Assembly (NCBI GenBank): GCA_031281465.1
Contig: JAITFH010000057.1
Span: forward strand, 1 to 56,938
Reading direction: 5' to 3'
DNA length: 56,938 nt
DNA from: Mycoplasmataceae bacterium
GTDB lineage: Bacteria > Bacillota_I > Bacilli_A > Mycoplasmatales > Mycoplasmoidaceae
Shown in pieces: positions 5,063 through 15,513 of the stretch. Every line of letters begins with the position of its first letter. Position 1 is the first letter of the stretch. The translations under genes and the position numbers were made by a program. The notes beneath the pieces are model-generated. The model made no database searches, was not told the DNA's origin, and saw only the letters and a program-made list of their open reading frames with translations.

Positions 5063-5072
5063 AGTGGCGATT

Positions 5073-8000
5073 ATGAAAGTAAAAAACTCATATAAAAAAA
5101 CTAAAATATGATTGGGTGTAGCTATGTTGACTGGTGGTGCAATTGCATCAACAGTAGTATACATTAACTATTTAAATAACACTGAATTCCAATACTGTAA
5201 TTTAGGAAAATTTGTATGAGACAGCAAAACTAATTCTCAAGACGTGGTTACGGCAATTATTGATAACGAAAGCATTAACACTTTTAAAAATGAATCAATA
5301 AGTTTTCTTAAATCGAAAATTTATACTTACGACTTAAAAGTTTTAGGATTAAGCAATGAAAAAGCTTCAGCTAATGCTTACGCTCAAGCAAACAACTACG
5401 AAAAAGAGTTTAACGAAATAGTTAATAAATATTATGATGATGAATATTTTGAAATACAAAAAGATAGTTTAAGTTCACCATTCGTTGTTGTCTATACAAA
5501 ACTCTTAGACTTAAATAAAAAATACGATATTGATCCTATCGACTATAACCAATTCCAAAACACATTACTACCACAAGTTAAAGAGAAAATTTTAAATAAC
5601 GTTGCTATCTCGCAAAAACCACAAATTTCTCAAAAATTTACCTTTTTAGAAAAACAAGCTAAGGATAAAATTTTAAAAGAACATTTGAATTCGTTTCATT
5701 TAAACAAATTCTTAGCTTCTACATTAAATGAAGAAGGATTATCTGAAGACAAAGAATTAGAACTAGTAGGAATCGAAGTTGCTAAAATGATTTCTAACAA
5801 AACTCTCGTTCTAAACGAAGAACCAACTACCGATTTTGCTAGTCTATTATCTCCTTATTCAGATAATGGTCAAGTTGGACACAATGAAAAAGAAGGAAAG
5901 AATATTTTACAGCCAGATGAAATTAACAAAATATTTTTTGCAAAGAGAGATTATTTAGGCGATGCCATAATGTTACAACCTGATGAGAATAGAAATTTAA
6001 GTGATGATTTTTATAACATAGAAGAAAAAAATGATCAAAATTATTTGCCTCTTGATAAATATATCCCTACTGTTGAAGGTATGCCAGGATTTGAAAAAAA
6101 CGAAATCATTCCAGGATACACTATTCATGCGAAAATCGCAAGTATAGATTATGGAAGTGATTCTAATTTGGTTAAAGTAGGTATTCAAGTAGGAGTTTCT
6201 AAAACTGCTGATGTAAACCAAAATATTTTCTGAATTCATGGAAGTGATGATGAAGTAAATAAAGCTGATTTATCTTACGATTTTAAAGTTTCACATTTTA
6301 ATCAAAAGCAGAATTGTGCTAATAATTTCTTTTATCCTAACGAATTAAAACTAACATATAAAAATAAAGATTTTGATGTGAAAGAAATTGTTAATCGTTC
6401 TACCATAACTACAATATTAGAAGACGCACCGACCGACACAAACGATTATTATTTATTTGATGAAAACCATCCATATTTACTTAACATTGATGATTTAGAA
6501 TTGCCTGGAATAGTTAAACCTCATCAATTAGAGAACGATCATAAAAACGAAAAAATTATGTTAGCAATTACCAATGCTAACACCAACTTTATGGATGCGG
6601 GTAGTTTACAAGATTTATTATCTAATCAAGAATTAGTTAATGATTATGCTAACCCATACCGTTTTAAAAACCTTATTCCTTATGTTGAAGCTAAATGGGT
6701 TTTAGCTGATACTGATCCAGAAACAGAAGAATATAAAATCATCAAAGAATTTAATTGAACTGATAGTAAAAATGGCAATAAGATTAGCACCCTACCTATT
6801 TACTTCCCTTATTCTAATAGTGATTTAGATCTACTTCAAACAGGAAATTTTACTGCTAAATTTATCCATGATTTTTATGTCTTAGCATATGATGAAAATG
6901 GTAATAAGAGAAACATCGGAAAAGATATCTATAAAAATATGCAGATTAGTGCAGGAGTGGACGGGGCATTATCTGGTTTAATTACTATATCTGCTTTAGC
7001 AAATGATGTATTTTCTTGTATAACCGCTTTTGGAGGAGCATGAGCTTTTGGAGAAGCAATAGCTTGTTCGATAATTGATGGATTTTTAGCATACAATGGA
7101 GCAATAACATCTTATGCTAAAATAGATATTCTTCCATCAATTAAAGATGTTGGCCAGTTTATAGAAATGTTTCAAATGTTTATTCCTAAAAATATAGCTA
7201 AAACTTATGCGGATTTTTATGATAAATTAAACGATCCATTAGTTTCAGCTAAAGCTAAACTTGATATCGCATTAATTAGTAAAAACTATATCTATACAGA
7301 TTTCAAATCTGTTTTCCAGTATTTTAACTACATTAACGGAATGATAGCTAACGAACCAAAATTTATGGAAGAATCAAAAAAGTGGATAGGAATTATGATG
7401 GATGACAGTTTTAAAGTGAGAGAATTTTTAACTTGAGAAGTGCGAACTTTTGGTGACAATAGTTATGTAGATTTAGATTCAACTAAAGAATTTTTAAACT
7501 ACCATAACAAAGATATTGTTAAAGCTTTTAAATCATTAGAGTCGGATGAGTTACCAAATGTTAGTGAAGCTACTCGGGTAATGCTATATGATTTTAAAAT
7601 CCACCGTTGTTATTTTGAATTATTTAGTATGATAAATGTAGTTAGTTTTCTACTTACGAAAACTCTAGGGTTAGTAGGGTTACAAGCATATTTTTGAAGA
7701 AATATTATTAATAATCCCGTTATCGAAGAAGCTCCTAAGTCAGTGCCAAGACCAGAGATTCCGCAATTTAATACTGGTTCTCGTTTTGGAGATTTTATAG
7801 CGAATATAAGATTTAGACGTTATCTTAACCAAAGACGTCACGATTTTATTCCGCTTGATGTTGATTTTGTGGGAGATGATTTAGACTACAACCTTCCTCG
7901 TCAAACAGAACCTGTACATCCAGAAGTTAATCATGAAGCTAGATTTGTTCAGAACGAAGAAACAATTACTAAAGGAGACAATTTAAATTGTTTCCTTAAA

Positions 8001-8156
8001 GGACAAAAAATTAATAAGGGATTAGCGAAAGCTTCTTTGATTACAGGTGGTATAGTATTGTTGGTCGGAGTTGCTCAAATTTTAGTAGATAATTTGTACA
8101 CAGTTATCCCAGAAGATAAAGCAAAACTTATGGAGCAACTTTGATCAAAACTATAG
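5073..8156 (+). CDS. Paralogous surface-protein family member P1
   Basis: 1027 residues with UGA as Trp; family not recognised. A basic N-terminus and one membrane segment (about residues 12-31) form an uncleaved signal anchor without lipobox. The long exposed part carries family motifs: INTFKNESISFLKSK, IDPIDYNQF, IIPGYTIHAKI, QNCANNFFYP, KPHQLENDHKNEKIML and NPYRFKNLIPYVEAKW. A glycine/alanine-rich hydrophobic stretch lies near residues 625-675, and a second membrane segment near 990-1010 is followed by the family ending IPEDK. P1 has a Pro/Arg-rich insertion near residues 890-980 that the others lack. It is transcribed alone and divergently from cas9. A role in adhesion, immune evasion or membrane damage is possible but only inferred. 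Confidence 0.85.
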
Positions 8157-8204
8157 AGTAATGTTTGTAATATTAAAATAGCAATAAGAATTTATAAAAG
8201 TCAA

Positions 8205-8210
8205 TATAAT
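8205..8210 (+). promoter_or_regulatory. -10 box of rubrerythrin gene
   Basis: TATAAT ends nine bases before ATG 8220, predicting a leaderless or nearly leaderless mRNA. Confidence 0.6.
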
Positions 8211-8219
8211 TACCTCGTT

Positions 8220-8780
8220 ATGAAAGAATTAAAAAAAGTAGATAAAAAATCACAAACATATAAAAACTTACAAAAAGCTTTTGAAGGAGAAAGTGCTGCT
8301 CGCGTAAGATATCAAATTTTTTCTAGTCAAGCTAAAAAAGAAGGATATGTACATGCAGCTAATGTATTTACTGAAAGTAGTGATAATGAAAAAGAACACG
8401 CAGAGATATGGTTTAAATTACTATATGATGGAGCGGTACCCGCTACAACAGAGTGTTTAAAAATTGCAGCTGGAAATGAAAAATACGAGTGAAGCACAAT
8501 GTATGAAGAATTTGCTAAAACAGCTAAAAAAGAAGGATATGATAATGTTGCTGAATTATTTTTAGGTGTAGCTAGTGTAGAAAAATTTCACGAAAGCAGA
8601 TATGAACAATTAAAAAAAGAAATAGATGAGAAAACTGTTTTTTCTGCACCTAAAGAAGTTTACTGATGATGTATGAACTGTGGAACATTTGTTAAAGGAA
8701 AAACTCCACCTGAACTTTGCCCAGTATGTAAACACCCTAAAGGATATTTTGTACAAAAGACAGTTAAAATTTGCGATTAA
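8220..8780 (+). CDS. rbr: Rubrerythrin
   Basis: Non-haem di-iron peroxidase, 186 residues, the usual family length. The N-terminal four-helix domain contains the iron-ligand motifs FEGESAARVRY, DNEKEHAE and EKFHESRYE. The C-terminal rubredoxin-like domain has CMNCG and CPVCKHPKGYF, a complete four-cysteine iron site. Rubrerythrins detoxify hydrogen peroxide in anaerobes using reduced electron carriers, so the gene points to life at low oxygen. The stop codon overlaps the stop codon of the convergent aldehyde dehydrogenase gene. Confidence 0.95.
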
Positions 8781-11982: not shown

Positions 11983-12068
11983 TCTTTTATATATACTTTA
12001 GTATATATAACCATACTTTATTAAATAATATTATTTTTAATTTTATAATTAAGTTAGGAGAAAAAACA

Positions 12069-12290
12069 ATGGAAAAAATACAAAATCAAGTAGCAACAAA
12101 AGTAACATATTTAAGAAACGGAGAAAAAGTATGTCCGGTATGTGGTTCATCACGTATTCAAGGAATTTCACGTGTTACTGGATATATGTCTTTAGATGAA
12201 CGTTTTGGAAGCGGTAAAGTATGTGAAAGAAAAGCTCGTATCGATCACAACGCAGGACACAACCCTAACTACGTATTAGGCAAAAAATAA
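12069..12290 (+). CDS. Stand-alone NrdD-type glycyl-radical domain
   Basis: 73 residues, resembling only the extreme C-terminus of anaerobic ribonucleotide reductase NrdD. It has CPVCGS (Cys22, Cys25), matching the second half of the NrdD zinc site, then ISRVTGYMS with Gly38 at the radical position, and RFGSGKVCERKARIDH, matching the NrdD tail. The first CxxC pair and the catalytic barrel are absent. The start is secure: TTAGGAG lies eight bases before the ATG. It could be a spare radical domain that repairs cleaved NrdD, as YfiD/GrcA does for pyruvate formate-lyase, or the separate C-terminus of a split NrdD encoded elsewhere. Its partner is not in the window. Confidence 0.7.
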   Translation: MEKIQNQVATKVTYLRNGEKVCPVCGSSRIQGISRVTGYMSLDERFGSGKVCERKARIDHNAGHNPNYVLGKK

Positions 12291-12777: not shown

Positions 12778-15513
12778 ATGAAAATAAAAAAACTAAGAAA
12801 CATTTTTGTCGTTTCTAGTGGTTCAATAATTCTTGCTTCTGCCGCTTTGTCAATGACTAGTTGTTTTGGAGACAAAAAGAGTGTTAACGGTGTTGTTCTT
12901 GATGAAACATCAATGTTTAAAATTACTGATGACTTATCAATTAAAGCTGTTATAAACGAACAATTTGATAAAAAAATTATTGGTTCAGAATTAAGTTTAG
13001 TTCAAGACGGATTAACACAATCAACTGTTGTATTAAGAGCAGAAGATTTTTATGTAGAAGTTAGCGGTTTACCTGAAGGTTTAAGATATGTTGACGGAAA
13101 TATATCAGGAAAATGTCTTAATGCTGATAGTGGACACTATACAATTACTTTAACTCCAAAACTAACAGGACAATATGCGGGAATTACATGTCAACCAAGA
13201 TCGTTCGGCTGAACAATTAGCCAATATAGCACTAATCCAGAAAATACACACCAACTAAGAGTATTACCACCTAATGTGTCTACTTTTGTAGTTGGCGAAG
13301 AACACTCAACAGGAGCTTTAGCTGTACAAGATAAAGAAACAGAATTGCCGGTTAAAACAAACTTGCTTTTTAATCTTGTTGAACCTAGTGAAATTTTAGT
13401 TAGTGGTGTTTCTTTTGACGAACTTACTGGAGCAATGAACATAAGTGAAGATGCAGGAGTATTTGAAATGGATGTTAAAATTTCAGTTACTTGTTCAGCA
13501 GCAGATTATGCTTATGCTGAGCCAGCTTCAGTTAGCTATAAACTAGTTAACTCTTATTCGCGTAATTTAAGTGACTTAAGTGTTGTTACAGATATAGGCG
13601 ATGTATGAACTAAATCTGTTAATAATGTACCAAACGAGGGAGAAGTTGCTTTAGCATTTGGCAAAGCTAATTGTGATGCAAATGGTAACAGTTTGTTACC
13701 TGGAGATTTAGACTATACAGTTACTAATATTACTCCATACGAAGCTGATTTAGTACCATCAGGTTTATACAACGAAGGTACAATCCATTTAACATATTTT
13801 GCAAAAAAAATGGTACAAGACTATGCAAAGCATGTTGATGGATTAAACAAATATAAAAACGATTCTGAATACGTCGCATACGCACTTAATGTAAGCAAAG
13901 ACTTTTTTGATTCACGTTTCCCTGTTGATACATTACTTGAAAATGCGTTAGATGCAGAGATACAAACAGATATTAATACACAGGTAAAAACCGCTATTTT
14001 ATCTATGTTTGGCGTTACAGATGAAGCTGCTGAAGAAGGAAAAACACCAGTACCAGCATGAGCAATGAACTGATTCAAAAACAGCTTTGGTGTTAATCTT
14101 AACACAGTGTTGAGCGAAGTTCATGGAGCTGTATCATGATTCTTAAAAGACTTAGATGATTTTGGTACATTTATTGCTAATCTTCCTAGCAAGGCAGATT
14201 TAACTGAAGCAATCGAAACTCAAACAGTTGATCCTATTGATACAGCTCAAAAATTATTTGAAAGAAACAAAACCGTTATACAAGCTAAGAGAAATGAGTA
14301 TAAAAGTGTTGAATCTACTTCAGAACTAAATTTATTTAATACGATTCTAGATTTCTTAACTTCTAAAAGAGACGAAAACTTTACCCCAGACCAATTATGT
14401 ACAATATATGATGGTGGCTTCACTTCACTTAAACGAGAAATGACTACTAAAGGGTTAATCAAAATGTTCGTTAAATTCTTTCAAGATTATATGGCTTTCA
14501 AATGTAAAGAACCACTTAATCTATTCACTACAAGTACATTCCAAATCTCTCAGTATGTTCCTCAATTAGCTAAACTTCCTGCGTTAATGCAAACAGGAGT
14601 TGATGGTCTTATCCGACAAGGGTTGGGAGCAACTATCGAATACTTACAAGCCAACCCTGATTTAATGGCTGATATAAATAATGGTTACAATAGTGATGAA
14701 TTCACATTCTTAGATAATTGATTAACTAATAACAAAGACGAAAATATTAGAACGTTTTGAGCAACTACCAAAGCTGGTTTACTTGACAAAACTAGCACAA
14801 CTAGTCTTCAAGAACTTTTCCAATTAATCCAACTTGCTATTGCTGGACTTTCATTAGCTTGAAACGCTGTGCCAGAATTCTTCCAAACTTCAATCTACAA
14901 CGTTTATATTGCTACTTCTGCTGTAAACAGTTACAGAAATGATGCTTTCGGAGACTTATCTAACGGTACTAAACCAGCAGCTGTAAAAAACCACAGATTT
15001 ACATACGCTAACGAAGTATGAAAAAACATTAGAATCGGTGATATTTTAATCGAAAACCTTGGTACGAGTGAACACCCAGTAGGACATGCTGCAATGTTTG
15101 CTGGATGACGTAAAAGCGAATTATATGGAAACCAAAATGTTGCTGTATTTATTGAAGCTCAATCAAATGGTGTTTACTATGGAATATTGGATGATAAAGA
15201 TTTAGCTAATGAAAAAGGAGAAGTATACTCTGTAGTTGGTTTATCTGAATCTATGAGAAACCGAGTTGTAAACTTCGCAAAAAAACAATATGCTAAAGAA
15301 TATAACATGCCACTTGTATTATTCTATGGACAATACAAATCAGCATCTTCTTGATTCTGTTCAGAATTAGTTTATAGTGCATACAACAGCATCGGACTTG
15401 ATATTAATGATTTTACGTTCGTAAGAGCTACTCCAGGTTGTACACCTTTCAACATCTTAAACTGATGTAGAGATAACACTACTTTTGTTGGTGGAACTAA
15501 GAGTGTTTACTAG
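12778..15513 (+). CDS. Lipoprotein with Ig-like repeats and a permuted papain-like (YiiX/NlpC-P60 type) domain
   Basis: 911 residues. A signal peptide ends in a lipobox, LSMTSC, with lipidated Cys29. Residues about 60-140 look like a putative Ig domain (SGLPEGLRYVDGNISGK). The middle is mostly helical and unrecognised. The last 160 residues have the order seen in circularly permuted papain-like amidases: GDILIENLG, GHAAMFAGW (His770), VFIEAQ (Glu793) and SSWFCSELVYSAY (Cys861). A surface hydrolase is therefore likely; related enzymes cut peptides, peptidoglycan stems or lipid amides. The cell itself should lack a wall, so the substrate is probably foreign or is not peptidoglycan. P2 follows 59 bases downstream. 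Confidence 0.8.

Follow-up and report, generated by a model that had tools for sequence, protein, structure and literature searches.

A small free-standing protein as the probable radical-bearing chain of a two-gene class III ribonucleotide reductase in gut mycoplasmas

Results

A radical-domain gene with its own start signals

The window, by which we mean the whole stretch of 56,938 nucleotides analysed here, corresponds to contig C45 in a MAG of 1.25 Mb, assembled in 72 contigs. On its forward strand, positions 12069..12290 hold an ORF of 73 codons with an ATG start and a TAA stop, whose product, P0001, is a free-standing NrdD-type glycyl-radical protein of 73 amino acids; a further 41 family genomes encode an orthologue of it. 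The genome uses genetic code 4 (TGA = Trp), and the ORF itself contains no TGA. A Shine-Dalgarno sequence, AGGAG, lies 8 nt before the ATG (12056..12060, +), and similar motifs precede many of the orthologues. Within the protein, CPVC (C22 and C25; 12132..12143, +) corresponds to the second of the two cysteine pairs that make up the zinc site in NrdD, and RVTGYMS (12171..12191, +), with G38 as the putative radical glycine, aligns with the radical loop in the NrdD structure 8p23. The first-pass annotation had described a 73-residue gene with its own Shine-Dalgarno sequence, encoding only half of the zinc site together with the radical loop, and the description is borne out in both respects. Against Pfam NRDD (PF13597) P0001 matches only positions 515-562, which are the last 48 of the profile, with E = 1e-7 and above the gathering score; TIGR02487 is matched with E = 1.8e-10, and the NCBIfam NrdD models are matched only at their last ~50 residues. 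The Pfam search of P0001 returned NRDD only, and no pyruvate formate-lyase radical domain. C22, C25, R35, T37, G38 and Y39 are invariant in a 26-row alignment. Modelled by AlphaFold as a single chain, without the core, P0001 has a pLDDT of 56, a low confidence.

A TATAAT hexamer upstream of the gene (12044..12049, +) is a possible -10 element of its own promoter. The element is suggestive only: several of the unlinked orthologues have a TATAAT a short distance ahead of the ATG, and in a local scan of the AT-rich stretch around P0001 promoter sites were not in excess over shuffled sequences and TATAAT was not significant. In nine genomes (G015, G018, G019, G036, G039, G040, G043, G048 and G049) TATAAT lies ~6-8 nt before the ATG of the domain gene and there is no Shine-Dalgarno sequence, an arrangement that suggests leaderless transcripts of the radical-domain gene in these genomes. 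Elsewhere in the window, large surface or lipoprotein-like genes occupy 5064-8156 and 12778-15513; read in code 4, their products have 1030 and 911 aa, and that of the second gene has a permuted papain-like C92 domain at its C-terminal end. A rubrerythrin gene is located at 8220-8780, 3.3 kb upstream of the P0001 gene, and a rubrerythrin-like gene (L074 1978-2577) also lies near the domain gene in G049; this nearness may be due to chance.

A truncated NrdD core in the same genome

The first-pass annotation had proposed a search of the genome for nrdD and nrdG, asking whether NrdD retains its own C-terminus. The search found one NrdD without it, plus NrdG. The single NrdD, P0002, is encoded on contig C9 and thus apart from P0001, and NrdG, above cut-off, on a third contig. 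P0002 has 659 aa when read in code 4, its gene containing three in-frame TGA codons, and comprises an ATP-cone and NRDD positions 1-516 (E 4.3e-166); it scores above the PRK07111 cut-off. The thiyl-radical cysteine is present in a GCR motif (STMGCRTYV). The first zinc cysteine pair, C639/C642, is near the end of the chain, which stops just after it with the C-terminus ...HIRYCLECADRLTKQKAEKGKESVN, and the stop is plain in the DNA. The radical loop, R-x-x-G-Y, is missing from P0002 and is supplied in trans by P0001. Since the core ends past the first cysteine pair and the small protein corresponds to the last 48 positions of NRDD, the two chains, covering positions 1-516 and 515-562, are complementary halves of one profile. 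The cut between them falls inside the four-cysteine zinc site and leaves two cysteines on each chain.

Occurrence and conservation in the family

Our family sample comprised 95 genomes, most of them incomplete MAGs. The free-standing domain was found in 42 (34 of the 36 genomes of g1, the window's genus, 6/6 of g5 and 2/2 of g6), and a truncated core in 41 of those 42 and in 0 of the 53 remaining genomes. The odd one, G041 (84% complete), has the small gene, and its split core was undetected. All 36 g1 genomes give an NrdG match, above cut-off in 33. For two g1 genomes, G054 and G065, neither NrdD, the radical-domain gene nor a class I or II reductase was detected, and the NrdG of G054 is above cut-off; these absences may reflect loss or incomplete assembly. 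In the 41 genomes the truncated core and the radical domain are encoded by separate ORFs. Many genomes have the gene order core-nrdG-domain, and g6 has core-domain-nrdG; in the window's genome and others the core and domain genes are on different contigs, the domain gene there standing among unrelated neighbours. The split is seen in independent assemblies and on some contigs of more than 200 kb. Named relatives are mostly gut MAGs, including ‘Mycoplasmataceae bacterium’, rumen ‘uncultured Ureaplasma sp.’, a goat reticulum bacterium and Candidatus Hennigella equi, the last assigned to Mycoplasmoidaceae by NCBI.

The residues expected to be functional are strictly kept. YCxxC closes all 38 cores and the thiyl cysteine of GCR is present in 38/38; all 42 small proteins, whose length in the group is 60-80 residues, have CxxC and R[VI]TGY. 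In intact NrdDs (n = 51) the two cysteine pairs are separated by 8-10 residues. Split cores extend 2-29 residues beyond their cysteine pair, and the small proteins begin in or before the inter-pair linker, most of them keeping the clostridial TYL..CPxCGS pattern. The small gene is under purifying selection, with dN/dS of 0.03-0.09 in close pairs and higher values in distant pairs, which are partly saturated. Core and small-protein distances correlate over 35 genomes (r = 0.84; 0/2000 permutations as high); shared ancestry adds to this value, which therefore demonstrates joint inheritance and not contact. A genome devoid of an NrdD core, or decay of the ORF, had been named at the outset as findings that would speak against a two-chain reductase; the core is there, on C9, and the invariant residues and low dN/dS are the opposite of decay. 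The distribution points to a split that is old and has been kept.

Other ribonucleotide reductases in the family

PF02867, the profile for the large chains of class I and II reductases, was matched in 46/95 family genomes. In the profile search it was found in 0/36 g1 and 0/6 g5 genomes, many of them incomplete and all in agreement. A second, full-length NrdD of another type is present in a few g1 genomes (G033, G041 and G066, in G066 beside phage-like genes) and absent from the window's genome. As neither class I nor class II was detected in g1 or g5, the split NrdD appears to be the only ribonucleotide reductase in most genomes of the window's genus and of g5. The other reductases of the family are of a different type or intact. 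Further splits had been suspected in the second NrdDs of G025, G033, G003, G041 and G021, which proved full-length when read in code 4; likewise, a Spiroplasma-like NrdD from the same order seemed short, and two examples read in code 4 (G276 and G281) were full length. The g6 genomes also hold a PF02867 reductase, and their split cores (L065 2815-4605; L066 2668-4461) are apparently shortened at the N-terminus.

Origin of the split

In a tree of the cores, all split cores, including a diverged B type (G035, G039 and G049), fall on one side of a branch that separates them from 24 intact clostridial-type NrdDs (SH-aLRT 98), a topology compatible with a single split event. When distant outgroups are added, g6 shifts beside Clostridium, and an AU test does not reject a single clade of type A and g6 (p = 0.55). 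Because the gene order and N-terminus of g6 differ, the split may have arisen there a second time. Among intact NrdDs, the clostridial ones are the closest relatives.

Related cases elsewhere

Free-standing or separately encoded loops are also found outside the family. In 14 genomes of another Bacilli family, f20 (L201 and L233-L245), NrdD ends after a complete zinc site and is followed, 1-40 nt downstream, by an ORF of 53-67 aa that starts just before the loop, mostly with a strong Shine-Dalgarno sequence of its own and with a varying frame offset; two members, L246 and L247, have a fused NrdD. The cut lies just after the zinc site in f20 and inside it in the gut mycoplasmas, and the f20 split is apparently independent of the mycoplasma split. 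A protein of ~90 aa, composed of a unique N-terminal part and an NrdD loop (FERIRRITGYLVGT..RFN) with no zinc cysteines before the loop, is encoded in 17 of 395 genomes of the class (L202 2922-3296, L248-L252 and 11 further genomes). In most of these genomes a full-length NrdD gives a match as well, and we regard the ~90-aa proteins as candidates for true NrdD spare parts. On the virus contig L181 a zinc-rich radical protein of 137 aa (5728-6141) is encoded just before an NrdD core (6346-8400) whose profile match ends before the loop. Similar small ORFs occur on the viral contigs L180, L182, L183, L185 and L186, with no core within the fragment; the viral radical proteins measure 113-138 aa.

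Discussion

Based on these observations, we propose that P0001 very probably serves as the glycyl-radical subunit in an anaerobic (class III) ribonucleotide reductase that is naturally split in two. The ATP-cone and the catalytic barrel, with its thiyl-radical cysteine, would come from chain 1 (659 aa), together with the first pair of zinc cysteines; chain 2 (73 aa) would bring the other pair, the loop with the radical glycine and the C-terminal tail. The two CxxC halves would hold one zinc ion and thereby clamp chain 2 onto chain 1, its loop being threaded into the barrel beside the catalytic cysteine, where NrdG, using S-adenosylmethionine, would generate the radical on G38. We infer that the split enzyme forms such a complex, binds zinc, carries the radical and is catalytically active. 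In the NrdD of Prevotella copri the radical domain consists of the zinc site and then the loop, which is buried beside the catalytic cysteine; the domain is believed to move mostly as one rigid unit (PMC11226230). An untethered radical unit, clamped by a zinc ion shared between chains, would be the simplest model for the mycoplasma enzyme.

Could the small protein serve another purpose? The first-pass annotation left two readings side by side, a split NrdD and a spare part acting as YfiD/GrcA does for pyruvate formate-lyase, and the split is the one that the genome favours. As a spare part, P0001 would rescue an oxygen-cleaved NrdD and be otherwise dispensable. The idea of an autonomous radical domain is the same, spare parts for other glycyl-radical enzymes have been proposed, although untested, by Andorfer et al. 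(PMC8683613), and elsewhere in Bacilli an intact NrdD does occur alongside the ~90-aa loop proteins. However, the only NrdD of the window's genome, which ends after the first CxxC, is itself devoid of the domain, so that there is nothing intact to repair, and the match of P0001 is to NRDD and not to the pyruvate formate-lyase family. Since nearly all members of the clade have a truncated core only, the domain appears obligatory, and we consider a dispensable repair protein very improbable. A rejoining of the two gene products into one chain by trans-splicing, through a split intron or a split intein, would be reminiscent of phage nrdD and other reductase genes, in which introns, inteins or homing endonuclease genes are frequent interruptions (PMC3653736). 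Yet the small gene starts from an ATG and a Shine-Dalgarno sequence of its own, Rfam intron families are absent from the five loci examined, nrdG sits between the two genes as a normal gene in many genomes, and there is no room for intein halves because the core stops only 2-29 residues past its cysteine pair; rejoining is thus extremely improbable. It is hardly conceivable that the gene is a pseudogene or a decaying or chimeric assembly fragment: MAGs such as the present one can be broken or chimeric, but the same split recurs in 41 genomes of three genera, in some of them on long contigs, the functional residues are invariant and selection is purifying. A programmed frameshift was also considered and discarded, as it is impossible with unlinked genes; in f20 the frame offset varies (0, 1 or 2) with a fresh start site.

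What are the implications of a radical residue on a separate chain? One account, compatible with the split enzyme that we favour, is that renewal is the main advantage: the 73-aa chain destroyed by oxygen would be exchanged and the large chain kept. In glycyl-radical enzymes the glycine is the point at which oxygen cuts the chain (PMC3019208; PMC8683613), the entire oxygen target would be the 73-aa chain, and the nearby rubrerythrin gene would fit such a role. On the other hand, a chain clamped by zinc might resist exchange, these mycoplasmas may be strict anaerobes, and neutral gene fission in reduced genomes would give the same picture, so that we rate renewal as the main advantage less likely than not. 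In principle, the oxygen-sensitive part of the split NrdD could be replaced without remaking the whole enzyme. If the enzyme is as proposed, its radical subunit could be freely exchanged, labelled or titrated. This would help to test the entry of the radical domain into the barrel, the action of NrdG on that domain and the repair of oxygen damage by subunit exchange. More broadly, we speculate, with the balance somewhat against us, that nature has arrived more than once at a free-standing radical subunit for NrdD: class III reductases would have been split repeatedly, in gut mycoplasmas, in another Bacilli family and in a virus, placing the oxygen-sensitive glycine on a small replaceable chain, and separate loop proteins would repair intact NrdD in other Bacilli.

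For an entire genus of gut mycoplasmas, the split NrdD is apparently the sole ribonucleotide-reduction route to DNA precursors. The trichomonad symbiont Ca. M. girerdii, whose anaerobic reductase has been reported as its most highly expressed gene (PMC10557491), reportedly has its nearest relatives among the mycoplasmas of the rumen and the termite gut (PMC4206474).

In the open-access literature, to which our search was confined, we found no class III reductase with the radical residue on its own small protein. Split reductases as such are already known in class I (phage; PMC3653736) and class II (Pseudomonas; PMC4520616), and nrdD genes broken by introns or frameshifts are known in phages. 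The phage genes resemble the present case in that nrdD, for example that of phiAS4, is spread over several reading frames; we rejected phiAS4 as a precedent, its breaks being inside the barrel and its last fragment ~230 aa long. Other phage reductase genes are interrupted by introns or inteins, and none is described as a free radical domain in the passages of PMC3653736 consulted. YfiD/GrcA is likewise a small autonomous protein with a glycyl-radical loop (PMC8683613), but it repairs an enzyme that has a loop of its own, belongs to another family and has no zinc half-site. NrdJa/NrdJb of Pseudomonas aeruginosa is a two-chain reductase of a free-living bacterium in which both chains are required (PMC4520616); unlike the mycoplasma pair it is class II and B12-dependent, and its small chain performs dithiol exchange without a glycyl radical. 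The P. copri NrdD (PDB 8p23 and relatives; PMC11226230) shares the ATP-cone, the NxN flap, the barrel and the structural zinc site followed by a buried loop, and differs in being a single chain with a mobile but tethered radical domain, whereas the radical domain here is untethered. Closest of all is the full-length clostridial NrdD (PRK07111/TIGR02487; PF13597), whose radical domain is ~60-74% identical to the small protein and shares with it the TYL..CPxCGS linker, the loop and the tail; what is one chain of ~700-720 aa in clostridia is encoded here by two genes, cut between the zinc cysteine pairs.
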